This document shows, piece by piece, positions 50,176-64,000 of a DNA stretch of 64,000 nt. The stretch spans positions 19,700 to 83,699 of the IMG/VR virus record IMGVR_UViG_3300037042_003533; one strand, 5' to 3'. Source of the stretch: a virus. The notes under the pieces were generated by a model. It did not search any database. It was given only the letters and a program-made list of their open reading frames with translations, and was not told the origin of the DNA. The position numbers and the translations under genes were made by a program. Numbering within the stretch: position 1 is the stretch's first letter; the number at the start of each line of letters is the position of its first letter.

Positions 50176-50204
50176 TTGACAACAAAATGGATGTGGTATA
50201 TACT
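50176..50204 (+). promoter_or_regulatory. Strong sigma-70-type rightward promoter
   Basis: TTGACA (50176-50181), 17-nt spacer, TATACT (50199-50204). Drives the structured leader and the three + genes up to the 52.1 kb terminator. Confidence 0.85.
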
Positions 50205-52114: not shown

Positions 52115-52175
52115 AAAGAGCCCCCTGTGTACCAAACTTACATGCTAAGTAAGCCTAGTACACAGGGGGCTCTTT
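52115..52175. terminator. Bidirectional terminator with an 18-bp perfect stem
   Basis: 52115-52132 and 52158-52175 are exact complements (AAAGAGCCCCCTGTGTAC arm), with a 25-nt loop and A-rich and T-rich flanks. Lies exactly between convergent genes. Confidence 0.92.
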
Positions 52176-52386: not shown

Positions 52387-52479
52387 AGTGAATCCTCCTT
52401 GGTGGATCAGTAAATACCCCATACCCCGTTTTTGCAGAACCTTTCAAATCTTTTTGAAATATTAAAGGGGCTTAAAGGG

Positions 52480-52647
52480 AGTGGTCAAACCTTTAGTAAG
52501 CAACGACCAAACCCTTTGACTCTATTGTACAAGGAATAGCCAAAGGGTTACACTAAATCCCATGAAATCTTTGTGAAGGTTTTCAAGCAACGACCAAAGA
52601 TATAAAAGCAACGACCAAACCCTTTGCAAGGAGTGATCAAAACTTTC
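52480..52647. repeat. Iteron-like repeat cluster (origin or operator candidate)
   Basis: GCAACGACCAAA occurs three times (52500, 52587, 52608), twice extended to ...CCCTTTG; the last two are 21 bp apart, two helical turns. Weaker copies lie at 52481 and 52633 and an inverted CAAAGGGTT at 52541. An A/T-rich stretch (52441-52465) borders it. The 330-nt gap has no convincing gene. Iterated sites beside an A/T-rich element are typical of replication origins. Confidence 0.6.
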
Positions 52648-52719
52648 AATGGACCTGCCACTATTGCAAGTGGGTCTCCTCCTGCCGGGTGTACCCCGGT
52701 CTTACAAAAGATCGATTCT

Positions 52720-52935
52720 TTACAGGCCCGTGACACAATTTTCACACACAGGCACCCATACCCCATTTAGCGAAGACTTGATTAATTGATTGACCTTTGC
52801 TCCACATAAGGGACAGGTAAGGAGAACTATTTCTGAAGGACATTCTTCAGGAGCAGGGAGATTCTTCCAGCGGGTTTCCCAGCCGGATTTGTGCCATCCC
52901 CACCACTTGTTTTCTTCACTCCTATGTTGTCTCAT
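52720..52935 (-). CDS. Zinc-ribbon protein
   Basis: 71 residues, GAGGTAATCC-ATG. A Trp-rich basic start (KWWGWHKSGWETRW) and a C-terminal four-Cys ribbon (LTCPLCGAKV ... VPVCENC). Its ribosome site lies inside one arm of the inverted repeat that brackets the neighbouring gene, so its translation may be masked by RNA pairing. Confidence 0.62.
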   Translation of the reverse strand: MRQHRSEENKWWGWHKSGWETRWKNLPAPEECPSEIVLLTCPLCGAKVNQLIKSSLNGVWVPVCENCVTGL

Positions 52936-53533
52936 GGATTACCTCTTCATAGCTGGCAAGTAGAATTACTTGTTAGAAATCTTAACCTTCATCTTCAAAG
53001 TCATCAAACCAGGTAGAACCCTTCAATTCCTTGCCGAGTTCTACCTTGTTTGACGGGTTTTTGAAATCTTTACTTGTTCTCTTAATCTGATCAGGGTTAT
53101 GATTTCCGAAGTCATATTTCTCAATTCCCCAGAAATTTTCTCCCTCATCAAAGTATTTAAGCTCAAAAGAAATATTGAACTTGTTTATAAAGGCCGCTAT
53201 GATGGGATATGGAACAGACCAAGCCGTGTCAAATTTGATGAAGGCTTTGCCATTTTCCTCTCCACAAGATTGATCATAGCAATTCCACTTTGTGCCCCAG
53301 TGTGTATTATTCCAAGTGTTCCAGTTAATAGGGAAGTCCTTCTCATCAGTTGCGGATAAATCTCCCCGATAGACTTCAAGGGGGGTCGGAACTAGTGTTT
53401 TGAAGTCAAATTTCCCTTTGGGGCACACCGAGTCGAAAACCTTCTGAGACTCGTCTAAGCTGAATGTTATTTTATTCGTAACATGGTTAGGCATTTTTTA
53501 TCCTTTAGCTTGCCAGCTATGAAGAGATAATCC
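52936..53533. repeat. 25-bp inverted repeat bracketing the YubB-like gene
   Basis: 52936-52960 and 53509-53533 are complementary at 24 of 25 positions. The 5' arm ends 14 nt before the start codon, the 3' arm begins 21 nt after the stop. Confidence 0.85.
52982..53494 (-). CDS. DUF1281/YubB ferredoxin-like-domain protein
   Basis: 170 residues, AAAGGATAAAAA-ATG. MPNHVTNKITF at the start, FDFKTLVPTP, WGTKWN, FDTAWSVPYPII and a final DEG-x-NFWG segment are the hallmarks of the Api92/YubB family common in phages and plasmids. Function unknown. It is one of six genes enclosed by a private inverted repeat. Confidence 0.8.
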   Translation of the reverse strand: MPNHVTNKITFSLDESQKVFDSVCPKGKFDFKTLVPTPLEVYRGDLSATDEKDFPINWNTWNNTHWGTKWNCYDQSCGEENGKAFIKFDTAWSVPYPIIAAFINKFNISFELKYFDEGENFWGIEKYDFGNHNPDQIKRTSKDFKNPSNKVELGKELKGSTWFDDFEDEG

Positions 53534-53540
53534 CCTCTCG

Positions 53541-53567
53541 CCAGCATAGCAACTTCTGCTATGCTGG
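53541..53567. repeat. Local hairpin, 11-bp perfect stem
   Basis: CCAGCATAGCA (53541-53551), 5-nt loop, exact complement 53557-53567, just downstream of the stop-proximal side of the gene at 53578. No T-run. Confidence 0.7.
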
Positions 53568-53577
53568 AGGCAAGAGA

Positions 53578-53760
53578 CTAGCTTCCACAATCGATATGAT
53601 CTTCAATGAGACTAAGAGTTGCCTCAAGAGCATCCTTGAATGCTACTTCCTGCCAGAATAATTCTAACTGCCTGTTGGCTTTGTACTCATTCATTCGCTC
53701 CGAGGATGAGTTGAGCCATTCTTTAATCCGACCACGACACTCTTCAATACAGTTGTGCAT
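53578..53760 (-). CDS. Small helical hypothetical protein
   Basis: 60 residues from ATG 53760, AAAGGAAT upstream, about 25 nt behind a strong promoter. Charged, all-helical, begins with C-x3-C. Function unknown. Confidence 0.6.
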   Translation of the reverse strand: MHNCIEECRGRIKEWLNSSSERMNEYKANRQLELFWQEVAFKDALEATLSLIEDHIDCGS

Positions 53761-53782
53761 TTTAGTATTCCTTTCTACTTTC

Positions 53783-53811
53783 AGTATAACATGCTCTTGC
53801 ATTAGGGTCAA
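53783..53811 (-). promoter_or_regulatory. Strong sigma-70-type promoter
   Basis: TTGACC (53811-53806), 17-nt spacer, TATACT (53788-53783). Transcribes leftwards into 53578-53760 and on. Confidence 0.78.
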
Positions 53812-53822
53812 CACAGTTATTA

Positions 53823-54073
53823 GCTGTCAACTGGCGAGAAGGTTTCCTACGGTTTGTAAATCCCGTTCCCTGAGTTTCGAGACCATTGCTCATCAAGGGG
53901 AGGGGAACCATTCAGATAGTGAACTCGCTCTGCTGCTTTATCTTTGCTTTCATGGTCACTCTCAGGTTCCCATCTACCATCAGGCTGATAGAAACCAACT
54001 GTCCATAGACCAGGCTCAGATTGAACATAAACATACATAGTATCTACCTCTCTTCTCTCACCAGTTGACAGCC
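53823..54073. repeat. Inverted repeat bracketing the gene at 53847-54038
   Basis: 53823-53841 and 54053-54073 are complementary except for one mismatch and a 2-nt bulge (GCTGTCAACTGG core). The 3' arm begins 5 nt after the stop, the 5' arm ends 14 nt before the start. Confidence 0.75.
53847..54038 (-). CDS. Small hypothetical protein
   Basis: 63 residues from ATG 54038, AGAGGTAGATACT upstream. Beta hairpin start (YVYVQSEPGLWTVGFYQPDG) then a charged helix (DKAAERVHYLNG); resembles small phage proteins of the single-domain 'ERVHYLNGG' type. Enclosed by an inverted repeat. Confidence 0.62.
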   Translation of the reverse strand: MYVYVQSEPGLWTVGFYQPDGRWEPESDHESKDKAAERVHYLNGSPPLDEQWSRNSGNGIYKP

Positions 54074-54119
54074 AAAAACACCCCCTATCCATCACTGAGT
54101 AGGGGGTTCAGTTTCCCGA

Positions 54120-54368
54120 TTAGGTACGGGTCATGCCAGCTACCCGCGCTTCACGAAGGATGCGTTGATCAAACCGGACAGCTTTGCCAGCTTCCTTGAT
54201 GATCTCAATCCGTCGGGTCGGGTTTGCTTTTGCATACCACAGTTCCTTCAACTTTGAGCGAAACTGGCTATCCCATTCCACCAGATAATCCGGGGCAGCA
54301 TAACCAGCTAACCGCTCGTGCAACTGGTAAAACTCATCCTGCGGTATTCCATTACTCCATCGTTCCAT
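54120..54368 (-). CDS. Hypothetical helical protein
   Basis: 82 residues, GAGGAGTTTTACC-ATG. Helical and basic near the end (RRIEIIKEAGKAVRFDQRILREAR). A CCCCCTA...TAGGGGG hairpin lies just after its stop (54085-54110). Confidence 0.6.
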   Translation of the reverse strand: MERWSNGIPQDEFYQLHERLAGYAAPDYLVEWDSQFRSKLKELWYAKANPTRRIEIIKEAGKAVRFDQRILREARVAGMTRT

Positions 54369-54384
54369 GGTAAAACTCCTCTAT

Positions 54385-54445
54385 TTTAGGTATACCCCGT
54401 TTGGGCCGATCTGATCTTCAATGATCCGATTCATCAAAAGGGGAA
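54385..54445 (-). repeat. Intergenic element with GGGGTATACC and GATC repeats
   Basis: Reading leftwards: GATC-rich imperfect hairpin, AAACGGGGTATACCTAAAA, then the ribosome site of 54120-54368. A member of the GGGGTATA cassette family without the long outer stem. Confidence 0.5.
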
Positions 54446-54446
54446 A

Positions 54447-54635
54447 TTAAACGCTTTGTGACACAGAATTTTGTGGGGGTGTTACGGGCCAGTGAACGGG
54501 TGCGTTCTTGTGGTCAACCCAAGCAACGGCTGTTACCAGAGCACATATCCAGATGCCCACCAGAATGATAGCCAGGCATACTGCTGTGAGGCACCATTCA
54601 GAAATTGTTTTGTAGGTTTGTTTTGTTTTAGACAT
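54447..54635 (-). CDS. Single-helix membrane protein
   Basis: 62 residues, AAAGGAGCTTGTC-ATG. One hydrophobic helix (about 15-40, LTAVCLAIILVGIWICALVTA), then a short Pro-rich tail (HWPVTPP). A similar 48-residue protein lies at 57633-57779 with the same AAGGAGCTT-type start region. Confidence 0.65.
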   Translation of the reverse strand: MSKTKQTYKTISEWCLTAVCLAIILVGIWICALVTAVAWVDHKNAPVHWPVTPPQNSVSQSV

Positions 54636-54671
54636 GACAAGCTCCTTTTATAGTAGTTAATCCTACACAAC

Positions 54672-54694
54672 TGATCCTATACAAGATAGGATCA
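54672..54694. repeat. Local GATC hairpin
   Basis: TGATCCTAT (54672-54680), loop ACAAG, exact complement 54686-54694. No T-run. Confidence 0.7.
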
Positions 54695-54717
54695 GATGGT
54701 CTAGGATGAACTGAAGT

Positions 54718-54984
54718 TTATTCCACCTCATCCCGCATCGACAAGGGAATGTAGCAAGGGGCAATCATCTTCTCAGTTTCCCACTCTGACCAGCGCGTGC
54801 CGGTCATATGAGAAGTTACTCTCTCAACCTTGCCATGCAGGGTGATGATACCACAGCGCTGGTTGCCGGTGGTGTTTGTGATGGTCACAATCCGGGCGGC
54901 GATCTGGCGGTTAGGTACAATTCCATGCCCATCGTAAAACGTTGTTACAAGGCTTTCCTTCTTGATTTCTACATTGTATTTCAT
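54718..54984 (-). CDS. Hypothetical beta-rich protein
   Basis: 88 residues from ATG 54984 (AGAGACACACC upstream). Antiparallel strand pattern (ARIVTITNTTGNQRCGIITLHGKVERVTS). Function unknown. Confidence 0.6.
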   Translation of the reverse strand: MKYNVEIKKESLVTTFYDGHGIVPNRQIAARIVTITNTTGNQRCGIITLHGKVERVTSHMTGTRWSEWETEKMIAPCYIPLSMRDEVE

Positions 54985-55027
54985 GGTGTGTCTCTTTTCT
55001 TTTGTATAAGATAATTTATCCAACCAT

Positions 55028-55057
55028 GCAGCTTACACACTCATCATTGTAAGCTGC
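55028..55057. repeat. Local hairpin, 9-bp perfect stem
   Basis: GCAGCTTAC (55028-55036) and its exact complement 55049-55057, 12-nt loop. Followed by a 17-bp tandem duplication (CCTACGCCTACCGGTTA-type) at 55075-55108 that spans the stop codon of the next gene. Confidence 0.7.
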
Positions 55058-55088
55058 CGGGCGGGAGAAATATACCTACGCCTACCGG

Positions 55089-55301
55089 TTACCTACGCCT
55101 GCCGGTTACTTCAATCTTCCCATCCTGTGGGGAAACTTCCCACATGAATGGGTCACCGCTTTGTGCCTTAGTGTCATAGATTGAAGCAGGCTGACCAGTT
55201 TTTCCCGCCAGGAAACTCCCTTTCTGGAAAGCTTCCCAGCGGTTAGGCGTGGTAACAAACTGATCCCGACCTACGTTGATCTCGTATCGATGTTCGTTCA
55301 C
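55089..55301 (-). CDS. Hypothetical protein (GTG start)
   Basis: 70 residues from GTG 55301, GAGGTATAAA upstream, directly after the previous TAA. Ends VTGRRR inside the duplicated 17-bp unit. Soluble; no family recognised. Confidence 0.57.
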   Translation of the reverse strand: MNEHRYEINVGRDQFVTTPNRWEAFQKGSFLAGKTGQPASIYDTKAQSGDPFMWEVSPQDGKIEVTGRRR

Positions 55302-55302
55302 T

Positions 55303-55563
55303 TTATACCTCGTATCTTGGAAGGTAGATAACCGTACCCTTACCCAAATTATCAGTAAGGGCAGACACCATAACATCACCTATCTGGTGGCGTAGCTCAC
55401 TGTCTTCTATGCCAACTATAATCTTGGCAGTAGCAGCCGATGGGCTTTCGTTGGTGGAGAATGCCAGGCATTGTTTGCCGAACATCATTCGACCAGAATA
55501 GGGGTACACCTGGTATCCTGCATTTTCAATAGCTTCCTTGAGTAGGTCAATAAAGAACTTCAC
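55303..55563 (-). CDS. Hypothetical protein (GTG start)
   Basis: 86 residues from GTG 55563, AAGAGGTGTATC upstream. An alpha/beta fold with FFIDLLKEAIENAGYQVYPY and GKQCLAFSTNES. Function unknown. Confidence 0.6.
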   Translation of the reverse strand: MKFFIDLLKEAIENAGYQVYPYSGRMMFGKQCLAFSTNESPSAATAKIIVGIEDSELRHQIGDVMVSALTDNLGKGTVIYLPRYEV

Positions 55564-55591
55564 GATACACCTCTTTTCTGCAAGGGGATAA

Positions 55592-55910
55592 CCCTGCTCA
55601 AACGGCGAGAGATATGTTCAGTTAGACAAACAACGAGCGAAACCAGGCTTTAGGACATGCGGTATCAATCCAAGCCAATGTGTGATCACAAACAGATAAC
55701 CATATCACTGCTAGGATAGCAGCAGGATAATCTTCTGTATTATCTAACCACCTGCTGGACATCTCACTGTTGGCTGGATCATCCCTCACTGCTTGGAAGA
55801 TCGCTTCTGCTTGATTAGGGAATAACCCATTATTGACCAGCTTGTCTTTAACAGCTTCCTCAAATGTCATTTTACTTTATCTCTTTTCTACTCTCGCCGT
55901 TTGAGCAGGG
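55592..55910. repeat. 20-bp perfect inverted repeat bracketing 55622-55870
   Basis: 55592-55611 and 55891-55910 are exact complements. The arms lie 10 nt after the stop and 20 nt before the start of the enclosed gene. Confidence 0.9.
55622..55870 (-). CDS. Hypothetical protein inside an inverted repeat
   Basis: 82 residues, AAGAGATAAAGTAAA-ATG. Helical start (FEEAVKDKLVNNGLFPNQAEAIFQAV), a central hydrophobic stretch (AAILAVIWLSVCDHTLAWI) and a short tail. The pattern resembles small phage proteins of the 'MTFEEAVRERLVSNGMF' type. Function unknown. Confidence 0.65.
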   Translation of the reverse strand: MTFEEAVKDKLVNNGLFPNQAEAIFQAVRDDPANSEMSSRWLDNTEDYPAAILAVIWLSVCDHTLAWIDTACPKAWFRSLFV

Positions 55911-55937
55911 GGCGATTCAGGTACACCCCGAATCGCC
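55911..55937. repeat. Hairpin carrying the GTACACCCC variant of the cassette motif
   Basis: GGCGATTC (55911-55918) pairs exactly with 55930-55937; the loop holds GGTACACCCC, i.e. GGGGTGTACC on the coding strand. Confidence 0.7.
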
Positions 55938-55946
55938 GCTGCTTTT

Positions 55947-56270
55947 CTACATATTTGTTAAGTATTGCCTCAGAAGGGGGGTAGGTTGGTCAATTTCTTC
56001 TTGCTGCAACACATCATCAAGGGATAGGTTGGCCGGTGGTGGGGTTCTTTTGATGTGGGCGGGGGTAAATTCTCCATCGACGTAATTCCACACTGACACA
56101 TCACCCACACAAGCCATATCCACAATAACTTGGGTGTATTGATACTTCCCAGCACAGCGCTGGCAAATATCAGCAGCTTCAAAGAGATGATCAACCTGTT
56201 TGATTGTTTCATCCAGACCGGTTTCTGCATTGTAGCCGGTTACTGTATAACGACCTTTTATTGTTCTCAT
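55947..56270 (-). CDS. Hypothetical Cys-containing protein
   Basis: 107 residues, AAAGGATTCAAC-ATG. First half alpha/beta with ADICQRCAGKY; C-terminal third acidic and Pro-rich. No family recognised. Confidence 0.6.
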   Translation of the reverse strand: MRTIKGRYTVTGYNAETGLDETIKQVDHLFEAADICQRCAGKYQYTQVIVDMACVGDVSVWNYVDGEFTPAHIKRTPPPANLSLDDVLQQEEIDQPTPLLRQYLTNM

Positions 56271-56298
56271 GTTGAATCCTTTCTTATACTAAGGTTAT

Positions 56299-56564
56299 TA
56301 CCTGCTGAGCGGTGGGAAACTAAGTTAGATTATCTTTAGCAAATTTTCTAAGGAGTAAATTTCTATGATGAGATCGTTTGCCTCATCTGATATTTCTACC
56401 AGACAGGCAACAGGAGTATTTTCATCCTTCATCAAATCCTCTGCCATCTGGCACAACTGCAAATGTTCTACTTTCTTGTTTGCAATGGTTTGCTTGATGG
56501 CTTCTATGTCTAATCTTAGGTTATCCATTGTTGCTCTTTTCTGTTTCCCACCACTCAGCAGGTA
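56299..56564. repeat. 22-bp inverted repeat bracketing 56325-56528
   Basis: 56299-56320 and 56543-56564 are complementary at 21 of 22 positions; 4 nt after the stop and 14 nt before the start of the gene. Confidence 0.88.
56325..56528 (-). CDS. Small coiled-coil-like protein inside an inverted repeat
   Basis: 67 residues from ATG 56528 (AAAGAGCAAC upstream). Nearly all-helical and acidic. The upstream part of the frame overlaps the repeat arm and is not likely translated. Confidence 0.6.
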   Translation of the reverse strand: MDNLRLDIEAIKQTIANKKVEHLQLCQMAEDLMKDENTPVACLVEISDEANDLIIEIYSLENLLKII

Positions 56565-56630
56565 GCAACCCACACCCCGTTTTGAGACTGTTTGAAATTG
56601 AGATATGGGTTGCAATAAGAGGGAAGGGGG

Positions 56631-57365
56631 TTATTTTATTCCCCAGTTAAGGAGATAGTGAGCATTTGCTTCCTGCTCTGCGTAGTCCTTCCCTTGCTGT
56701 GCTGCTGCTGCCCGTGATTTGATAAGGGGTACAACATCCAGATAGAAGCTGTGAGGCATAATAGCCTCATCTTCTTCGATCAAGCTGGTATAGCTGTTAT
56801 CCATATACCACTCATCTTCATTATGACGGGCAATCTTATACAGTTCCAGTGCTTCAATCGGATTAGTGTTGCTCAGGATTGAAGCCTTCTCATACTGATT
56901 CTTAATCCGAGCTTTTTCTTCCAGTATATCCCTAAGAAGATCGGCCCGGTCATCTTTGCGGGAGAGGTTGAATCGCTCTGCTGCGAAGTCCACACACTCC
57001 CAAAAATCTTCCATCGTGCCCTCGTTGCCACCCAGGTAGCCCGCGATCTCTCGCATTCTGCGGTCACTCAGGTTCGAGGCATCCCAACCCTTTTCCTCAA
57101 AGTCATCACGGGATACCCGTGTAACATCAAAGAATTCCTGTTGGGTTGGCTTGGGCTCATAGTGCAAAGTTACAGCACCATTGTTAATCTGAACAAAGGG
57201 CTGAGAGTAACTATTGCTCAGCAGAAAACTGATGTGACCAAGCCTCCCAAAATAGCGGGGGGTGTAGGTTTTCTCAGTATGCCAGTTGTCCTTTGTTTCT
57301 CTCACAAAGGTTATTTCATACTTTGTACTGTGGCAAATTCTCACTTCGATAATCTTGTTTTTCAT
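56631..57365 (-). CDS. Hypothetical protein, largest of the cassette array
   Basis: 244 residues, AAAGGTAAGAAC-ATG. First 70 residues form a beta-rich domain, then a long helical charged part (FDVTRVSRDDFEEKGWDASNLSDRRM) and an EQEANAHYLLNWGIK end. No membrane segment. The sequence resembles no family I can name. The dyad element at 57401-57426 lies 35 nt upstream. Confidence 0.65.
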   Translation of the reverse strand: MKNKIIEVRICHSTKYEITFVRETKDNWHTEKTYTPRYFGRLGHISFLLSNSYSQPFVQINNGAVTLHYEPKPTQQEFFDVTRVSRDDFEEKGWDASNLSDRRMREIAGYLGGNEGTMEDFWECVDFAAERFNLSRKDDRADLLRDILEEKARIKNQYEKASILSNTNPIEALELYKIARHNEDEWYMDNSYTSLIEEDEAIMPHSFYLDVVPLIKSRAAAAQQGKDYAEQEANAHYLLNWGIK

Positions 57366-57400
57366 GTTCTTACCTTTCTTTGTGTATAGGTTGTGATATG

Positions 57401-57426
57401 TAATTACATCTCATGAGACGTAATTA
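57401..57426. promoter_or_regulatory. 26-bp dyad, candidate operator (copy 2)
   Basis: TAATTAC-N3-TCATGA-N3-GTAATTA, matching the element upstream of polA (42171-42196) except for two of the spacer bases. Lies upstream of 56631-57365. Confidence 0.7.
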
Positions 57427-57446
57427 TACTTCAGAGAGATAACTCT

Positions 57447-57491
57447 CTCATAAGACCACACCCCGTTTTGTGTGGATTGTGATCTTATGAG
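57447..57491. repeat. Two-part hairpin with ACCCCGTTTT loop
   Basis: CTCATAAGA (57447-57455) pairs with 57483-57491, with an inner CACAC/GTGTG stem around CCCGTTTT. A small AGAGAG-ATAA-CTCTCT hairpin precedes it. Confidence 0.65.
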
Positions 57492-57536
57492 AAAGCCTTT
57501 CTATTTGTGTTGTATGACGTTATTATACTATTTTCC

Positions 57537-57602
57537 TGCCAACTGAAGTGTACCCGTTTTTAGGTACACCCCAATTGGCAGAAAGTGATCTTCGTTGATC
57601 AC
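57537..57602 (-). repeat. Paired-hairpin cassette, copy 1
   Basis: Hairpin 1: 57537-57580, outer arms TGCCAA/TTGGCA and inner GTGTACC/GGTACAC (other copies have GTATACC, a compensated change). Hairpin 2: GTGATC-6 nt-GATCAC (57585-57602). No terminator T-run on either strand. Confidence 0.85.
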
Positions 57603-57632
57603 CTTCTGGAGATAAGGTAGTTAATTTCAGCA

Positions 57633-57779
57633 TCACACTTGCTGAGTATATTCTGGCAGGGGGAAGTGATGAGGTGTATGTTTCAAGGTTACTGCAAGAT
57701 ACCCCACCCAGATTGTACCGGCAATAGTGGCGACCAGGATTATCACCCCGCACCATTTTATAGCAGTAGCAAATGACAT
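57633..57779 (-). CDS. 48-residue single-helix membrane protein
   Basis: ATG 57779, AAAAAGGAGCTTTTATC upstream, TGA 57633. One hydrophobic helix (about 9-30, WCGVIILVATIAGTIWVGYL) then KHTPHHFPLP, like the membrane protein at 54447-54635. Function unknown. Confidence 0.65.
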   Translation of the reverse strand: MSFATAIKWCGVIILVATIAGTIWVGYLAVTLKHTPHHFPLPEYTQQV

Positions 57780-57831
57780 GATAAAAGCTCCTTTTTAGCT
57801 ATACCCCGTTTCGTAGGGGTTTGAAATTGTT

Positions 57832-58038
57832 ATGATTGTTTCTCATAAGAAGGGCAAAGGGTTACTAAAATTCTACCCTAAAATTAAACCACAGCCAATG
57901 GTAAACACCAGGGCTAGAACTAAGGGTCAATTTTCTAGGCAACCAAGAGAATTTTACATAGACCGATCTTGCTATTTGAAATCTCATTGTAGTCTTTATC
58001 CTTTTCTATCCGTTGCCCTTCTTATGAGACACAATCAT
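57832..58038. repeat. 29-bp inverted repeat bracketing a 40-codon gene
   Basis: 57832-57860 and 58010-58038 are complementary at 27 of 29 positions; the enclosed gene 57865-57987 begins 22 nt from one arm and ends 4 nt from the other. Confidence 0.88.
57865..57987 (-). CDS. 40-residue hypothetical protein inside an inverted repeat
   Basis: ATG 57987 with AAAAGGATAAAGACTACA upstream, TAG 57865. Basic, aromatic (VYVKFSWLPRKL, VYHWLWFNF). Its reality rests mainly on the ribosome site and on sitting exactly where a gene is expected between the repeat arms. Confidence 0.5.
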   Translation of the reverse strand: MRFQIARSVYVKFSWLPRKLTLSSSPGVYHWLWFNFRVEF

Positions 58039-58044
58039 CTTAAA

Positions 58045-58105
58045 ACCTACCATACCCCGAATCGCGCGATCTGATCCGAGGTATGATAGGGTGGTATGGT
58101 GGTAA
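58045..58105. repeat. Intergenic hairpin with CCATACCCC/GGTATGG arms
   Basis: ACCATACC near 58048 pairs with GGTATGGT near 58093; GGGGTATGG on the coding strand is the cassette motif, and GATC repeats lie in the loop. Confidence 0.55.
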
Positions 58106-58112
58106 GGGAAAG

Positions 58113-58478
58113 CTAATAGGCTTTCTTTGTGCGCTTGCAATGGCATATCTGAGTCCATTCACCATACTGGACTCCGTGCCACCAGTAACCATCAAACACA
58201 AACCAAACATCGACTCTACTGCCCGCAATGTTGTGCTTTCCCGTGTGGTAGCTCGTTGGCTCGAATTTAAGGGTACCCGACCAGTTTGTGATCTTGTAGG
58301 TATCCCGCTCTTTGGTGAGATACAGATCGATCTTGCCGGTTTCCCTCATGTCCTTCTGATCTTCAATTGCACAACAAGCATAGCATATCGGGCCGGTCTT
58401 AGATATACCGTACCCCATGCCACCACTATTCGCGAGGGACATAATTTCCTTCTTACAACTACTGCAAACGATATTCAT
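58113..58478 (-). CDS. Conserved phage zinc-binding protein
   Basis: 121 residues from ATG 58478 (AAGGGGCTTTACA upstream). CSSCKK and CYACC early on, then GKIDLYLT, ITNWSGTLKF, HNIAGSRVDVWF and WHGVQYGEWTQICHCKRTK: a family I recognise from many unrelated phages, function unknown. Probably zinc-bound. Confidence 0.8.
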   Translation of the reverse strand: MNIVCSSCKKEIMSLANSGGMGYGISKTGPICYACCAIEDQKDMRETGKIDLYLTKERDTYKITNWSGTLKFEPTSYHTGKHNIAGSRVDVWFVFDGYWWHGVQYGEWTQICHCKRTKKAY

Positions 58479-58506
58479 TGTAAAGCCCCTTTTTGATTTT
58501 ATTTTG

Positions 58507-58814
58507 TTTGTTACCTGCTCATAGGCCAGCAATGTTACTAGAAGATACTATCTTCCACCTGCTCGGCTAGTGCCTCGTTGTATTCCCTTAATTCGTCTAG
58601 TATCTCATCGTATGCTTTCACGATTTGTCTATCTTCCCACGACATCGCCTTGCCGCTTACCTTTACCTCATAATAGAGTAATTGGGTATCAACATCGCCG
58701 CACGATATAAAATCGTTCATGCTTACCGAATACCCGAAAAACTTTTTGAACGCTTCACCTACTATCATTGCCATTGCTTTACTCTTTCCTGCTGGCCTAT
58801 GAGCAAGTAACAAA
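58507..58814. repeat. 25-bp inverted repeat bracketing 58538-58774
   Basis: 58507-58531 and 58790-58814 are complementary at 24 of 25 positions; 6 nt after the stop and 15 nt before the start. Confidence 0.9.
58538..58774 (-). CDS. Hypothetical protein inside an inverted repeat
   Basis: 78 residues from ATG 58774 (GGAAAGAGTAAAGC upstream). Helix-strand-helix, acidic end (DELREYNEALAEQVEDS). Function unknown. Confidence 0.62.
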   Translation of the reverse strand: MAMIVGEAFKKFFGYSVSMNDFISCGDVDTQLLYYEVKVSGKAMSWEDRQIVKAYDEILDELREYNEALAEQVEDSIF

Positions 58815-58823
58815 TTGATCCTA

Positions 58824-58858
58824 CTCTTTGACCACCATAAGATATGATGGTCAAAGAG
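58824..58858. repeat. Local hairpin, 15-bp stem
   Basis: 58824-58838 pairs with 58844-58858 with one mismatch. Followed by CCATACCCCAAAACG, another copy of the GGGGTATGG motif, and a GATC-TTGT-GATC hairpin. Confidence 0.72.
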
Positions 58859-58919
58859 CAGTATCCTACCATACCCCAAAACGTGCGATCTTGTGATCAC
58901 AATCTGCAATAGTAAGGGG

Positions 58920-59213
58920 TTACTCCTCAACTAACTTTCCAGTGATGACTCCACAAGTATTGATGTAATACAGTGTCCATGGTTGCCCATAAGCATCATA
59001 GAGATCATCATGATCGGGTATACATTCCCCCCACTCCTCCACCCCCATCATACTCATGTTATCAATGCGCTTGTATGCTCGCGCAATAAGCCTTGCAATA
59101 TCTGCTTTCCAAGCTTGGCGAATTTTCCCGCGCTTAGTATACTTTGATGGATTCCAAGCATACCTTTGTGAATTTACCGGGAGAGTTTCCGGCTTTTGAT
59201 ATAATATTCGCAT
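58920..59213 (-). CDS. Hypothetical protein
   Basis: 97 residues, AAAGGATTAAACAATC-ATG. Basic N-terminal half (WNPSKYTKRGKIRQAWKADIARL), acidic centre (CIPDHDDLYDAYG) and a beta-strand end. Not recognised. Confidence 0.6.
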   Translation of the reverse strand: MRILYQKPETLPVNSQRYAWNPSKYTKRGKIRQAWKADIARLIARAYKRIDNMSMMGVEEWGECIPDHDDLYDAYGQPWTLYYINTCGVITGKLVEE

Positions 59214-59258
59214 GATTGTTTAATCCTTTTCTCTAAAACTGCTATACGTTATTTCCTA

Positions 59259-59326
59259 CTATTTGGGGTATAAGCATATTTTACCTATACCCCAAATAGC
59301 AGGAGTCGATCTGAATTGATCGACTC
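59259..59326 (-). repeat. Paired-hairpin cassette, copy 2
   Basis: Hairpin 1: CTATTTGGGGTATA (59259-59272) with its exact complement 59286-59299. Hairpin 2: GAGTCGATC-6 nt-GATCGACTC (59303-59326). Both stems differ in sequence from the other copies but remain perfectly paired. Confidence 0.85.
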
Positions 59327-59343
59327 TCTGTTAGGGGAGGCGA

Positions 59344-59733
59344 TTATCCAACCAAGCATACGTTGCAGCACTTGGCAAGGTACCGAATGTATCTTATCTG
59401 ATGTTGGGTGTAGTTGATCGAGTCAACGTCAACACTAGGATCACCATAGTTGTATATGGGCCGATTATGCTTTCCTCGGAAGATCGGTATCAATTCGGCT
59501 CGATGATATTTGTACTGCAAATTGTTGTGGTACCGTTGGCGGTACAGATCAAGATCGTTTGTCAATCGCTCATACTCAAATTGTAGTTGATCATAGGGTA
59601 TAGCGAATCGACCGGGCGCGTGCTTTGTGCAATCAATAGTGGGCCAGATCGGTCTATTTTGACGCCTAAAGGCCGCCGTCTGATAATCCCAAGGTGTAAG
59701 TCGCCAGTGTCCTTGTTTGTCCTTATATCCCAT
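59344..59733 (-). CDS. Hypothetical protein rich in Tyr, Arg and Asn
   Basis: 129 residues, AAAGGATTATAAG-ATG. Extended start (YKDKQGHWRLTPWDYQTAAF), a long charged helix (DQLQFEYERLTNDLDLYRQRYHNN) and a Cys pair at the end (CCNVC). Function unknown. Confidence 0.58.
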   Translation of the reverse strand: MGYKDKQGHWRLTPWDYQTAAFRRQNRPIWPTIDCTKHAPGRFAIPYDQLQFEYERLTNDLDLYRQRYHNNLQYKYHRAELIPIFRGKHNRPIYNYGDPSVDVDSINYTQHQIRYIRYLAKCCNVCLVG

Positions 59734-59781
59734 CTTATAATCCTTTGCTGATAACTAGTAGAACGTTATTTACTGCTTTCC

Positions 59782-59847
59782 TGCCAACTGAGGTATACCG
59801 GTTTTCGGGTATACCCCAATTGGCAGAAAGTGATCTCATCAGATCAC
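59782..59847 (-). repeat. Paired-hairpin cassette, copy 3
   Basis: Hairpin 1 at 59782-59825 (TGCCAA/TTGGCA outer, GGTATACC twice as inner arms). Hairpin 2 GTGATCT-CATC-AGATCAC at 59830-59847. Confidence 0.88.
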
Positions 59848-59867
59848 GATCTGCTATGGGAAGGGGA

Positions 59868-60101
59868 TTAGGACTCAGCATATCTCAGTAGATCAAGTGT
59901 GGTGCTATTCAGTGGTTTGTCACACTCAAGAATACGCATGTTACAATCCCATGATCCCGGCTGACATCTTTTGTCTTGCGCGATCTCAAGCTTTCTTAGC
60001 GCGGCATAAGCGCATTTCAGCTTGCGATGTTTGCTCACTGTCTCATAAGCACTATCTGGCGCATGAACGTGCGCCCACTTGGTTTGTTGTACTTCGAACA
60101 T
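59868..60101 (-). CDS. Hypothetical protein
   Basis: 77 residues, AAGGAGTCTAGA-ATG, the same start region as 61541-61750. Basic, two short helices, four Cys. Function unknown. Confidence 0.58.
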   Translation of the reverse strand: MFEVQQTKWAHVHAPDSAYETVSKHRKLKCAYAALRKLEIAQDKRCQPGSWDCNMRILECDKPLNSTTLDLLRYAES

Positions 60102-60137
60102 TCTAGACTCCTTCTATGCTATCTTTACGTTATTTCC

Positions 60138-60204
60138 TGCCAATTGTGGTATAAGTATACTTTACCTATACCCCAATTGGCAGAAAGTGATCTTTTCAGA
60201 TCAC
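60138..60204 (-). repeat. Paired-hairpin cassette, copy 4
   Basis: Hairpin 1 at 60138-60182 with CCAATTG outer and GGTATA/TATACC inner arms. Hairpin 2 GTGATCT-TTTC-AGATCAC (60187-60204), which in the transcript has a GAAA tetraloop. Confidence 0.88.
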
Positions 60205-60229
60205 GATCTGCTAAGGTAAGGGGGAAAAT

Positions 60230-60850
60230 CTAGTCGGTTTCTTTTTCTAGCCAACCAAGATCGCCCAAAGCCTCTAAAATATCCTCTTTGTACAACCAAC
60301 CCTCATTATCCCAAGCCGAGTCAAACTCGGATTCCATCTGAGTCTTGATATAGTCAACGACGATCTCAACCCAGGACTCCGGCTTATCATCGATGGTGGC
60401 ACGAGACTCACACTTGATCGACTCTTCCATATTGCTAGAATATTCCTCATATTCCATATTGGAATAGTGATCCTCATCAGCCGCAGGATAGCCGTCAAGC
60501 TTATCTAGCCAATACAAAACACGCCTTCCGGCTTTCGTGATCCGCCCGTTCTTGGTGATCATCTTAACGGATAGGTGATCCTCCCACCCACAAGCCCAAT
60601 GGCTACAGTGATCAATGATAGTGTTTTTGGGGTGGCGCGTGATCATATCCTCACTAATTACTTCCCAGTTTGAGCGCTCCAAAACATCAGAGTCGCGATT
60701 GACTGAGAAAGTAAAGGCCCAAGTCTCACCAAGATCGGCTTCCCCGTGATAACCAAAATCGGGGATATTCTTGCTTTCTTTGACGATCTGGCGGGCGATC
60801 TCACTGTCGGTCTTATCTTGTTTGAATTGATAGAAATCTTTGTGATTCAT
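60230..60850 (-). CDS. Hypothetical acidic protein
   Basis: 206 residues, AAAGGAAAACAAAA-ATG. WAFTFSVNRDSDVLERSNWEVI, then HWACGWEDHLSVKMI in the centre and an acidic helical C-terminal half (KEDILEALGDLGWLEKE). Resembles proteins of unknown role in several phages. No catalytic motif seen. Confidence 0.62.
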   Translation of the reverse strand: MNHKDFYQFKQDKTDSEIARQIVKESKNIPDFGYHGEADLGETWAFTFSVNRDSDVLERSNWEVISEDMITRHPKNTIIDHCSHWACGWEDHLSVKMITKNGRITKAGRRVLYWLDKLDGYPAADEDHYSNMEYEEYSSNMEESIKCESRATIDDKPESWVEIVVDYIKTQMESEFDSAWDNEGWLYKEDILEALGDLGWLEKETD

Positions 60851-60875
60851 TTTTGTTTTCCTTTATTAGCTATAG

Positions 60876-60969
60876 GGTATTTTCTGCTATACCCCAATTT
60901 CCGTGCCTTAAGCTTTGCATATAGGTTATGCAAGGCTTAAGGCAAGGGGCGATCTATCCTGAGATCGCC
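60876..60969 (-). repeat. Intergenic hairpin group, variant cassette with a 15-bp stem
   Basis: Small GGTAT/ATACC hairpin (60876-60893), then 60905-60943 with GCCTTAAGC/GCTTAAGGC and TTGCAT/ATGCAA arms, then GGCGATCT-6 nt-AGATCGCC (60948-60969). The last is the GATC hairpin with compensated outer pairs. Confidence 0.82.
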
Positions 60970-60999
60970 GCTTGTCTGGTATTACAGCCCATGAGACAA

Positions 61000-61410
61000 C
61001 TACAGCCATTCACTTCTGAGAGCATATCCGCCCGACTTGTGCATGTGCGGAGTCCGATCAGTATCCCCGTTGTGGTGCTCATTGCTGGGGCAGTGTCCAC
61101 CAGTACACTCAAAGCCATCAGGATATAGAATTGATCCCAGGGTATACACCAAGTGAAACCCCATATCCATCCCACACCCTTCCATTTTAACCCCATCATA
61201 GCTACGATTGATCGCCTTGCCAAGCAGTACACTCGCAGCATAGTTAGGGTGAATAGGGTAGCCGTCTTTGGTGATAATGACTAGTCCGATATGACGAGTC
61301 ATACCAGATCGGCTACAATGGCGCAAAATGCAGTAGATTGTATCGCCCGGCTTGACTACTGACCGTAAGAATTCCTTTTGTTCCTCTATTTCCTTATCTG
61401 AGTATTTCAT
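61000..61410 (-). CDS. Conserved phage protein of the SRSGM family
   Basis: 136 residues. VKPGDTIYCILRHCSRSGMTRHI, GCGMDMGFHLVY and C-terminal GGYALRSEWL are the hallmarks of a family seen in many phages and prophages, function unknown. His/Cys residues in ECTGGHCPSNEHHN may bind metal. AGGAATAGACG-ATG region shares its upstream sequence with 59344-59733. Confidence 0.8.
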   Translation of the reverse strand: MKYSDKEIEEQKEFLRSVVKPGDTIYCILRHCSRSGMTRHIGLVIITKDGYPIHPNYAASVLLGKAINRSYDGVKMEGCGMDMGFHLVYTLGSILYPDGFECTGGHCPSNEHHNGDTDRTPHMHKSGGYALRSEWL

Positions 61411-61453
61411 CGTCTATTCCTTTGCTGATAACTAGTAGAACGTTATATTTTCC

Positions 61454-61520
61454 TGCCAACTGAGGTATACCCGAAAAACAAGTATACCCCAATTGGCAGA
61501 AAGTGATCTTTTCAGATCAC
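61454..61520 (-). repeat. Paired-hairpin cassette, copy 5
   Basis: Hairpin 1 at 61454-61498 (inner GGTATAC/GTATACC), hairpin 2 GTGATCT-TTTC-AGATCAC at 61503-61520. Confidence 0.88.
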
Positions 61521-61540
61521 GATCTGTTATGGTAAGGGGA

Positions 61541-61750
61541 TTAGATATAGAATAATCCCGCGCAACCAGTAGGGCGAATCTGTGTATGTTGTTCATAAGC
61601 ACAATATCCCGCCATTTGAGCAATCAAGCAAGCTCTTTTGTATGTTATAGAATTATATTCTCTGATCCCGTTTGATCGTTCTATGTTGCAAAAATAACCA
61701 TTAGTGTAGTTGCTATACCCTACTTCAATCGCGCAAATTCTATTTTTCAT
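61541..61750 (-). CDS. Small hypothetical protein
   Basis: 69 residues from ATG 61750 with AAGGAGTCTAGA; the upstream part of the frame runs into the hairpin and has no site. Mixed strand-helix protein with four Cys. Function unknown. Confidence 0.6.
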   Translation of the reverse strand: MKNRICAIEVGYSNYTNGYFCNIERSNGIREYNSITYKRACLIAQMAGYCAYEQHTQIRPTGCAGLFYI

Positions 61751-61786
61751 TCTAGACTCCTTGCTTGCTATCTTTACGTTATTTCC

Positions 61787-61852
61787 TGCCAACTGAGGTA
61801 TACCGGTTTTCGGGTATACCCCAATTGGCAGAAAGTGATCTTTTCAGATCAC
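61787..61852 (-). repeat. Paired-hairpin cassette, copy 6
   Basis: Hairpin 1 at 61787-61830, nearly identical to copy 3; hairpin 2 GTGATCT-TTTC-AGATCAC at 61835-61852. Confidence 0.88.
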
Positions 61853-61871
61853 GATCTGCTATGGTAAGGGA

Positions 61872-62141
61872 TTATACACTTCTGGCACAAGTACACTCAG
61901 CAATACCCATACAGGAGCAATGGCAATCGGCCAGTGTTTTGTAGTTGTGATCCCTAAACAAAGTTTGACGCGCTTCCCATCTATGCGCTTGGCAATGCCA
62001 CAATGACACACTGATCGGCTTTCCTTCTATATCGGCTTGACTCCAATAGTGTGCAATTTTGGCATCGTAACAAAACAAACAGAAATGTCTTTCTTTTGAC
62101 AAATCCTTGAAAAACTCCCGATGTGTTTTGATGTTTATCAT
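61872..62141 (-). CDS. Cys/His-rich hypothetical protein
   Basis: 89 residues from ATG 62141 (GGAAGGATAAACTC upstream). FCLFC, WHCQAH and a C-terminal CHCSCMGIAECTC suggest binding of two zinc ions. Confidence 0.62.
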   Translation of the reverse strand: MINIKTHREFFKDLSKERHFCLFCYDAKIAHYWSQADIEGKPISVSLWHCQAHRWEARQTLFRDHNYKTLADCHCSCMGIAECTCARSV

Positions 62142-62181
62142 GAGTTTATCCTTCCATACTATCTTTACGTTATTTGTTTCC

Positions 62182-62247
62182 TGCCAATTGCGGTATACCA
62201 GTTTCCAGGTATACCCCAATTGGCAGAAAGTGATCCTTTCAGATCAC
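62182..62247 (-). repeat. Paired-hairpin cassette, copy 7
   Basis: Hairpin 1 at 62182-62225 (CCAATTG outer, GGTATACC inner). Hairpin 2 at 62230-62247, where the pair next to the loop is T-G instead of T-A, so the stem is kept. Confidence 0.88.
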
Positions 62248-62272
62248 GATCTGCTATGGTAAGGGGGGAGTA

Positions 62273-62542
62273 TTATCTAAATGTATCTTCATAGGCAAGG
62301 GCCGTCAGAGAGTCCTGGGCTTCTTGCCACTCGTTCTCACGGTTTGACCAGCGCTTAAAGCTATTTACCCTCATTCCTATTTGGCGGGGAGTTTGACCTA
62401 TAAACTCAGGATTACCGTCCCCAGTATACCAGCCATTAGTTTTTGATCTGATATCTTGAGTAATACAAACACCATCGACAAAAACAAGTTGCTGGATACC
62501 ATGCCCACAATCTATATCTCGTTCATACACCTTGCAGTTCAT
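62273..62542 (-). CDS. Hypothetical protein
   Basis: 89 residues, AAGGAGTAAAC-TTAAA-ATG. Strand-rich N-terminal half with C-x-C-like positions (YERDIDCGHG), helical C-terminal half. Function unknown. Confidence 0.6.
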   Translation of the reverse strand: MNCKVYERDIDCGHGIQQLVFVDGVCITQDIRSKTNGWYTGDGNPEFIGQTPRQIGMRVNSFKRWSNRENEWQEAQDSLTALAYEDTFR

Positions 62543-62580
62543 TTTAAGTTTACTCCTTGCTTACTATCCGAACGTTACCC

Positions 62581-62675
62581 TACCCTATACGCCAATTTAC
62601 CGATGTTTGATCTTGATCCAATTGGCGCATAGGGTAAGGGGGAAATGACACAATAAATTGTGCCAGGCTTTCCCC
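62581..62675 (-). repeat. Two intergenic hairpins, divergent cassette
   Basis: 17-nt arms 62581-62597 and 62620-62636 (one G-U pair in the transcript) share AATTGGCG and the CCCTTACC border with the other cassettes. A second hairpin (62639-62675) has nested GGGGAAA/TTTCCCC and CACAAT/ATTGTG stems. Confidence 0.78.
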
Positions 62676-62745
62676 TTACCAGCAAATTGGCTATCGCTTT
62701 GCTAGACTGGCCGTATGATCGTAGTATGACCTACTGATCACCCAA

Positions 62746-63078
62746 CTACGCGCAATGCTCATTGTACCATACGCAGAAAAACTCAATTTCCTTGCGAGTG
62801 TTGAACATATCAATCTCGCCCGGATAACCTGATAGGTCAATATCCCCAGCATTCTGATCGTCAATTCTGATCGAATGATGGTATGACTCATCTTGCAATA
62901 CCTCAAAACTCCAATGCTTTCGAATGTTTCCCAACACTCTGATCTTCCCATCAATGTCATTGAGATCGTTTTGTTTTTCGTCAATTGCTGCTTGGCGTGC
63001 CTCTCTCAGTGTTGGGTAAGCACTAACACTATCGGGCAAGTATCCATCTTGCCCTACTTGCACAAAATATACTTTCAT
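62746..63078 (-). CDS. Hypothetical protein
   Basis: 110 residues, GTGAGATAAG-ATG. Starts with VYFVQVGQDGYLPDSVSAYPTLREARQAAIDE, a strand-helix start like those of small phage regulators; acidic C-terminal half. Another frame (62691-62984) overlaps it but has no ribosome site. Confidence 0.62.
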   Translation of the reverse strand: MKVYFVQVGQDGYLPDSVSAYPTLREARQAAIDEKQNDLNDIDGKIRVLGNIRKHWSFEVLQDESYHHSIRIDDQNAGDIDLSGYPGEIDMFNTRKEIEFFCVWYNEHCA

Positions 63079-63119
63079 CTTATCTCACTTTCTTGTGATA
63101 TGTTTCACAAACTCCAAAC

Positions 63120-63212
63120 ATGAGCAATTGCTCATATTCCCGGTATACCCTAGAAGGGGAATACCTTACCATACCCCAAAACGTACAAAAGTGTTTTGAG
63201 CTATGGTAAGGT
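63120..63212. repeat. 16-bp perfect palindrome and an 11-bp-stem hairpin
   Basis: ATGAGCAATTGCTCAT (63120-63135) is a perfect palindrome. ACCTTACCATA (63163-63173) pairs exactly with 63202-63212, around an inner CAAAAC/GTTTTG stem and a GGGGTATGG motif. Confidence 0.78.
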
Positions 63213-63263
63213 GAGAAGGGTATTACTCTGCCCTTCTCTATCCTTACTGATGGCCGAATGATG

Positions 63264-63731
63264 CTATGCAACCTTGGCTACTTTCTTTGCCTCATTGTTA
63301 CGCATATTTAGCAACCATTTCACCATGTCCGATTCAGACCGGCTATCCTTGTGCCACTTATCAATCAATCGTTGTTCTGTTGCACTAAGTGCTCCCAGGG
63401 TGACGATTGTGGACACTGTAGACACTGTGGCAGGCTTGGCTACTGCTGGGGTTACTTCAGTTTTGGCAGCCACAACAACAGGCTTGGCGATCTTTGCTGG
63501 CATTAGGGGGAGAGTGTATTGTTTCCCGTCAAGCTTGATCGTCAGAGTCTCGATTGTACTCTGATATGCCAAATTTTGGGCTTCCAGGTACTTAATGTAG
63601 GTTTCAGCCTTGCTACCCCAGCGGTGAAGCGCCTTACCCTGTTTTTGTGCTCTGTAGAGCTTATCTTGCGTATCCAGCAAAGCACCAAGCAGAGCTAAAC
63701 TGACTATGACTAAAATAACGTTTGCGATCAT
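63264..63731 (-). CDS. Membrane-anchored hypothetical protein
   Basis: 155 residues, AAGGAGTTTACA-ATG. N-terminal membrane helix (ANVILVIVSLALLGALL), then a charged helix that may be a coiled coil, a Val/Ala/Pro-rich linker and a C-terminal helical domain (SATEQRLIDKWHKDSRSESDMVKWLL). Function unknown; spanin-like topology is possible but no partner is seen. Confidence 0.62.
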   Translation of the reverse strand: MIANVILVIVSLALLGALLDTQDKLYRAQKQGKALHRWGSKAETYIKYLEAQNLAYQSTIETLTIKLDGKQYTLPLMPAKIAKPVVVAAKTEVTPAVAKPATVSTVSTIVTLGALSATEQRLIDKWHKDSRSESDMVKWLLNMRNNEAKKVAKVA

Positions 63732-63773
63732 TGTAAACTCCTTGTGTTTTAATAATTTAGGACGTTATTATTT

Positions 63774-63798
63774 AAGATACTTAATTTTATAGTATCTT
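63774..63798. repeat. Local A/T-rich hairpin upstream of 63264-63731
   Basis: AAGATACT (63774-63781) pairs exactly with 63791-63798; followed on the coding strand by AATAACGT, the short sequence that follows hairpin 1 in the paired cassettes. Confidence 0.7.
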
Positions 63799-63822
63799 GG
63801 CAGTAGACAAACACTAGAAAGA

Positions 63823-63972
63823 TCAAAACTCAGCTAACCATAGGCGATATAGGTCAATCTGACTCTGGTAATACTCAATCGCTGGTAAGTTTTGCACTTG
63901 CTGCGAATGAGCTAACAGAGTCTCAAAATTGGCTAGACTGTCGACTATCATGGTCTTTGTGTAGATTGTCAT
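63823..63972 (-). CDS. 49-residue helical hypothetical protein
   Basis: ATG 63972, TGA 63823. Helical with Gln/Leu-rich stretches (ANFETLLAHSQQVQ). No clear ribosome site is seen in the 28 bases before the window ends, so the start is less certain. Confidence 0.5.
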   Translation of the reverse strand: MTIYTKTMIVDSLANFETLLAHSQQVQNLPAIEYYQSQIDLYRLWLAEF

Positions 63973-64000
63973 TTTGCTACACCCAAAAGTAGGCTAAAAA

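Follow-up and report, generated by a model that had tools for sequence, protein, structure and literature searches.

RNA stems at most gene junctions in the early region of an unclassified bacterial virus: candidate sites of RNase III-type processing

The ~7,000-nt early mRNA of phage T7 contains five sites at which RNase III cuts it (PMC4858673), the palindromes that mimiviruses carry at their gene ends vary in sequence but are kept for their structure and read by an RNase III-type enzyme (PMC4402537), and in Staphylococcus aureus a duplex between the 5' and 3' untranslated regions of icaR is cut by RNase III (PMC3868564). Here we describe a set of RNA stems which, like the T7 sites that give gene-sized mRNAs, lie between early genes and lack a U-tract. 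They were found in a 64,000-nt stretch of viral DNA (the window), corresponding to bases 19700-83699 of the 83,699-bp IMG/VR contig IMGVR_UViG_3300037042_003533. The contig represents an unclassified bacterial virus of siphovirus-like type, encoding a tape measure protein, a terminase, a family-A DNA polymerase, a DnaB-like helicase and a primase, as well as a T4-type RNA ligase and an integrase-family protein. The stems occupy a block of small, mostly orphan genes at ~52-64 kb, labelled early on the basis of position and content; all of these genes lie on the minus strand, and the relevant gap RNA is therefore that of the minus strand. The original prediction placed one and the same pair of hairpins in seven gaps of this block. 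Both hairpins are indeed present at all those places, but the seven gaps turned out to be one case of a region-wide stem set that also includes stems enclosing whole genes.

The long stems were retrieved from 52-64 kb with a strand-blind search for Watson-Crick stems, which yielded 13 local stems (score of at least 12) and 6 long-range stems (score of at least 19) in 11.9 kb of the early region. The same thresholds returned 0 stems in 60 dinucleotide shuffles, 0-1 local and 0 long-range stems in each equal segment of the remaining contig, and a mean of 0.57 local and 0 long-range stems in 61 other viral loci, a control that errs on the safe side because these loci were mostly fetched for holding a hairpin-like match. 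The main helices are near-perfect, extending over 17-24 bp in the local and 20-26 bp in the long-range stems, and the folding z-scores of the gaps are as low as -6 to -10.7. Local helices with 17 or more pairs are present in 13 of the 26 gaps and arms of long-range stems in 12, the weakly structured gaps being mostly those with the 3' arm of a gene-enclosing stem. Stems of unrelated sequence occupy equivalent gaps, and most junctions of this single minus-strand gene block are covered.

The mismatches within the stems carry information on the level at which selection operates. G-U pairs survive in RNA, and the opposite strand would read them as A-C. With homologous copies counted once, the stems contain 15 G-U, 1 A-C and 8 other mismatches on the transcript strand (one-sided p=2.6e-4 against strand symmetry), although the stem search made no distinction between the strands, and the asymmetry holds in both local and gene-enclosing stems. 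Selection is therefore concluded to act on RNA, and we regard RNA-level selection on this unusually dense stem set as well supported, with a high degree of confidence. The same counts bear on a reading of the elements as DNA palindromes serving as cruciforms, in replication or packaging, or as mobile-element ends. Such a reading could draw on their GATC-rich sequence and on a three- to fourfold enrichment of GATC across 56300-64000 (9.1/kb in coding sequence and 13.9/kb in gaps versus 2.8/kb in the rest of the contig), but it does not account for the excess of G-U over A-C on the coding strand, nor for elements that track the junctions of one gene block with flanking arms that differ from gene to gene. 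We consider it very improbable, and transposon ends in particular were discarded since the arms are private to each gene.

The two-hairpin cassette was found at 57.54, 59.26, 59.78, 60.14, 61.45, 61.79 and 62.18 kb. In the minus-strand reading the GATC hairpin precedes the long hairpin, which is followed by the Shine-Dalgarno sequence and the gene, and the A-C mismatches of the plus strand turn into G-U pairs. A typical gap reads, 5' to 3' on the transcript strand, stop codon, CCCTTACCATAGCAGATC, GTGATCT-GAAA-AGATCAC, TTT, CTGCCAATTGGGGTATACC-loop-GGTATACCTCAGTTGGCAG, GAAATAACGT, Shine-Dalgarno and ATG, the last two staying outside the helix. The copies, all on the minus strand, map to 57516-57620 (long stem of 23 bp with the GTGTACC/GGTACAC change; 89.2 bits in the covariance model described below), 59240-59339 (the most diverged, with GAGTCGATC..GATCGACTC, TGCTATTTGGGG..CCCCAAATAGTA and a 23 bp stem; 83.8 bits), 59762-59862 (22 bp; 103.4 bits), 60121-60219 (inner stem GGTATAGG..CTTATACC; 108 bits), 61439-61535 (24 bp; 100 bits), 61770-61867 (22 bp; 114.7 bits) and 62161-62262 (21 pairs plus one mismatch; 104.3 bits). 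The arms initially assigned to the long hairpin do not hold throughout: the 59.26 copy lacks the outer pair TGCCAA/TTGGCA and has TGCTATTT/AAATAGTA in its place, and the inner arm GGTATACC is replaced by GGTATAGG/CTTATACC in the 59.26 and 60.14 copies, the partner arm having changed as well in each case. The short hairpin has two GATC sites, usually at a distance of 10 nt. Its GAAA tetraloop is not a general feature: it is confined to four near-identical copies (60.14, 61.45, 61.79 and 62.18), and the other loops are GATG, AACGAA, AATTCA, CAGGAT and ACAA. A signal of the lambda nut boxB/N type was considered and set aside because neither the GAAA tetraloop nor a GNRNA-type loop is generally conserved; hairpin promoters of the N4 type were likewise rejected, since, judging by the sizes of the ORFs (open reading frames), there is no giant virion RNA polymerase.

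Pairing was evaluated after aligning the seven copies with MAFFT: 97.4% of the cells pair, a figure that falls to ~45% when the partner is shifted by one column. Five pairs have changed on both sides, compared with 1.5 +/- 0.9 after partner shuffling, and none of 500 shuffles reached five; the helix of the first hairpin is under-counted because the aligner misplaced part of it in the 59.3 copy. These compensated pairs, along with the G-U excess on the transcript strand and the unrelated stems at equivalent positions, uphold the proposal that pairing itself is selected. The compensated events derive only from the 57.5, 59.3 and 60.1 copies, the other four being close, and the covariation is thus good rather than abundant. 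A covariance model, which had been suggested as a check, was built from the seven copies and recovers all of them at 84-115 bits, with far lower scores (33-44 bits) when the cassettes are read from the opposite strand. The model also identified a diverged eighth copy near 60.95 kb (60885-60982, minus strand; E=3.2e-5, rounded to 3e-5) that was outside the training set and consists of a hairpin GGCGATCT..AGATCGCC and a 17-pair stem at 60904-60944, and it retrieved nothing convincing from other loci, viral and bacterial, totalling 748 kb (best match E=0.22).

The long-range stems, six in number and 20-26 bp in length, each surround a single small gene or ORF: one arm lies in the gap that precedes it, the other directly past its stop codon, and the arm sequence is private to each pair. 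All on the minus strand, they extend over 52936-53533 (arms 52936-52960 and 53509-53533; gene 52982-53494; pair probability 0.90), 53816-54079 (arms 53816-53839 and 54056-54079; gene 53847-54038; 0.93), 55592-55910 (arms 55592-55611 and 55891-55910, a perfect 20/20 match; gene 55622-55870; 1.00), 56299-56564 (arms 56299-56320 and 56543-56564; gene 56325-56528; 1.00), 57832-58038 (arms 57832-57857 and 58013-58038; a 40-amino-acid ORF at 57865-57987; 0.95) and 58507-58814 (arms 58507-58531 and 58790-58814; gene 58538-58774; 0.98). The mean pair probabilities of 0.90-1.00 were obtained from the RNA partition function on transcripts of 270-900 nt. No report of gene-enclosing stems in phages was found in the literature searched.

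Hairpins of non-cassette sequence are further present in gaps at 57.45, 58.82, 60.90, 62.58 and 63.16 kb, and also at 58.05 kb if G-U pairs are allowed. The minus-strand structures outside the cassettes comprise a hairpin GGCGATTCGGGGTGTACCTGAATCGCC around the motif GGGGTRTR at 55911-55937, a 14-bp helix with GGGGTGTGGGTTGC as its 3' arm at 56565-56613, a long hairpin enclosing AAAACGGGGTGTGG at 57446-57492, an 18-bp hairpin whose 3' arm contains GGGGTATG at 58046-58090, hairpins of unrelated sequence with 19 bp at 58817-58865 and 20 bp at 62578-62639, and a hairpin of ~20 bp, CCTTACCATAGC..GGGGTATGGTAAGG, at 63163-63212.

The motif GGGGTRTR has 20 minus-strand sites in the contig. Of these, 18 fall within 52-64 kb, nearly all of them in gaps, whereas the plus strand of that block has 2. 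The 18 sites (52420, 52757, 54391, 55922, 56571, 57457, 57565, 57800, 58051, 58870, 59286, 59810, 60167, 60888, 61483, 61815, 62210 and 63170, minus strand, spanning 52420-63177) include 7 inside the homologous cassettes and 11 outside. Such a one-way intergenic distribution, which is typical of the stoperators of mycobacteriophage L5 (PMC9283540), would be expected if a sequence-specific regulator bound the motif, either in DNA in a stoperator-like manner or in RNA as an operator or antiterminator, with the stems serving for its presentation. Nonetheless, the motif is nearly always paired, as the 5' arm in some stems and the 3' arm in others, so that its sequence is kept and its partner varies; stems without it also occur, and the G-U asymmetry at the RNA level is unexpected for a DNA site. 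We therefore find a regulator site improbable as the explanation of the stems, yet GGGGTRTR may mark a second, sequence-specific function, perhaps a stoperator-like one, that RNase III alone does not explain. Another short sequence, AATAACGT, has 7 minus-strand copies in the early region (57517-63769), mostly directly after the long hairpin; the one at 57517 overlaps the end of a TATAAT, and no -35 element was seen near AATAACGT in the cassettes.

The cassettes are homologous across gaps that separate non-homologous genes, and two downstream sub-types, AACGTAAAGATAGC and AACGTTCTACTAGTTATCAGC, are common to distant gaps. This is what would be anticipated from recombination cassettes resembling the T4-type elements known as PeSLs (promoter early stem-loop cassettes), repeated gap sequences that bear regulatory signals and through which genes are inserted and shuffled, the hairpins simply being carried along; the PeSLs and the similar motifs of the haloarchaeal virus HGTV-1 are the closest published parallels. 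The regulatory signals are, however, not apparent here. As the original prediction stated, the hairpins are not ordinary terminators: the long hairpins are followed by a T-run on neither strand and, lacking a U-tract, the cassette does not qualify as an intrinsic terminator. Promoter-like sites of the sigma-70 type stand at chance level (33 found versus 29.4 expected), and the idea of such a promoter in every gap was abandoned. Moreover, homologous recombination does not explain six gene-enclosing stems with private sequences, and the compensated changes imply that the structure is maintained. Recombination of this kind is accordingly an unlikely explanation by itself, although it may add to the processing favoured below.

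Individual signals of the conventional type were noted in and around the block. Good sigma-70-type promoters lie at 53811-53783 (minus strand), upstream of the gene 53578-53760, and at 50176-50204 (plus strand), upstream of the plus-strand gene at 50411, while a 27-bp inverted repeat with a T-rich tail at 52115-52175, between convergent gene blocks, is probably an ordinary terminator. At the left contig end, the covariance model has a weak match at L008:274-366 (minus strand; E=0.046) and a minus-strand promoter-like sequence was seen near L008:660-700, which could head the operon if the contig ends adjoin; the two features look as though the early operon ran on through this candidate join. 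A perfect 15-bp stem, GAGAACTAACCAACA/TGTTGGTTAGTTCTC, flanks ~90 nt at L008:1444-1562 (minus strand). With respect to GATC, a comparison among parts of the contig found GGATCC and CGATCG absent, AGATCT once and TGATCA 28 times, a pattern that suggests avoidance of particular restriction sites, and a DNA methyltransferase-family protein is encoded at L008:1805-2410. The gene at L008:2862-3926 specifies a T4-type RNA ligase 1 homologue (phrog_562, RNA_lig_T4_1), worthy of mention given the stem-rich gene block; circular mRNAs, an idea prompted by this ligase, found no supporting evidence.

The distribution of the stems among related viruses was also addressed. A relative with 38% identity to the early protein encoded at 60230-60850 was found in a viral contig of 78.6 kb (L139/G001) that shares core genes in similar order, including terminase (54%), DNA polymerase (38%), helicase (36%) and primase (34%). 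In the gaps round the shared early gene of this relative the helices reach 4-13 bp and the z-scores are mostly 0.7 to -3, with one of -5.5, and the covariance model gave no match on the contig. The stem system is therefore lineage-specific, having been gained here or lost there. Stems were absent from other phages sharing single proteins, and searches for relatives through the helicase, terminase, nucleotidase and the early proteins 58113 and 61000 gave either none or distant ones without comparable stems. Megablast and distant BLAST searches against phages and plasmids gave no meaningful match (one weak phage match at E=0.9), no near relative was found among phage records, a scan of genome contigs returned only Paracoccus matches at 27% identity, and Rfam gave no match above the gathering score in the window. 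Exact-pattern hairpin matches in viral contigs were dismissed as chance, coding or tRNA DNA, or ordinary U-tract terminators.

As far as can be read from the sequence itself, the virus has stems restricted to its early region, selected at the RNA level and devoid of U-tracts. Near-perfect helices of about two turns are typical RNase III substrates, and because helices of this kind without U-tracts match the requirement of the enzyme at most junctions, we consider RNase III-type processing the best explanation, to which we would give about half of our confidence; cotranscription, cleavage and the enzyme are elements that we infer. The early region (~52-64 kb, minus strand) would be transcribed into a long polycistronic RNA in which near-perfect helices of 17-26 bp, either as local gap hairpins or as gene-enclosing stems, are kept at most junctions. 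These helices would be double-stranded RNA substrates of a host RNase III-type enzyme, or double-stranded punctuation marks of that kind, and cutting or insulation would divide the early message into units the size of a gene, their ends protected. The same structural evidence, with Shine-Dalgarno and start codon outside the helix, would also fit stems that are never cut and insulate or stabilise the message by blocking 3' exonucleases, ribosome run-through or Rho, the enclosing stems joining both ends of a cistron. To stay intact in an RNase III-bearing host such stems would require protection, and we regard this alternative as possible but rather doubtful.

Several points weigh against RNase III-type processing or the evidence on which it is built. 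A host enzyme must be assumed, since the contig is without a detectable RNase III domain (PF00636 is absent from it, and 8 of 14 control genomes match); moreover, RNase III would have no need of a conserved GGGGTRTR, and a purely structural function explains neither this motif nor AATAACGT. The covariation rests on few events, with 3 or 4 of the seven copies truly diverged and no hairpin-bearing relative found. Part of the G-U excess might come from mutation that is biased between the strands, the asymmetry being strong but not absolute. Finally, the syntenic relative lives without stems, which are hence not essential to such viruses.

It is also conceivable, though we advance it tentatively, that a "hairpin rule" operates in this bacterial virus, with interchangeable cassettes, each gene delimited by a sequence-variable RNA stem that either sits in the gap or closes round the gene, single-gene RNAs excised in the way of rRNA, and GGGGTRTR acting as a common handle for a dedicated factor. 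If the stems are cut, on this reading or on that of RNase III-type processing in general, the dosage of single genes and the lifetime of their mRNAs could be set by structure and not by fixed sequence, which would explain how small early genes are swapped without breaking the operon. RNA ends would then be expected in the ~20 computed helices, and compensatory mutants should be wild-type-like. With a syntenic relative that has no stems, how such a system is gained or lost becomes accessible to study.

Comparison with the systems that most resemble this locus shows both shared traits and particularities. Repeated homologous gap sequences that hold a stem-loop and separate small, unrelated early genes are shared with the T4-type PeSLs and the HGTV-1 motifs, but, set against these elements as papers citing the original work describe them, here there is no intrinsic terminator and no convincing promoter, the virus family is unrelated, and the stems are longer and also gene-enclosing. 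GGGGTRTR recalls the L5 stoperators as a short one-way motif in intergenic gaps, whereas here it is part of RNA stems and selection at the RNA level argues against repressor-bound DNA. The mimivirus palindromes have in common with the present stems a variable sequence and a structure that is maintained, but, unlike the mimivirus case, this is a bacterial virus with no viral RNase III, a two-hairpin cassette and no involvement of polyadenylation. The gene-enclosing stems resemble those of pre-rRNA and icaR in that a long-range helix joins both ends of an RNA unit; those helices are cut by RNase III, and here six small phage genes have stems of their own with the Shine-Dalgarno sequence outside the helix. 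T7 has five sites per ~7 kb compared with ~14 local and six gene-enclosing stems in ~11 kb here, where one side formed by the conserved GGGGTRTR and a GATC hairpin ahead of the stem are additional features and cleavage is presumed. Hairpins or private enclosing stems at most early-region junctions would vary a known processing theme and, if the stems are cut, T7-style processing would be extended to most junctions of an early region.

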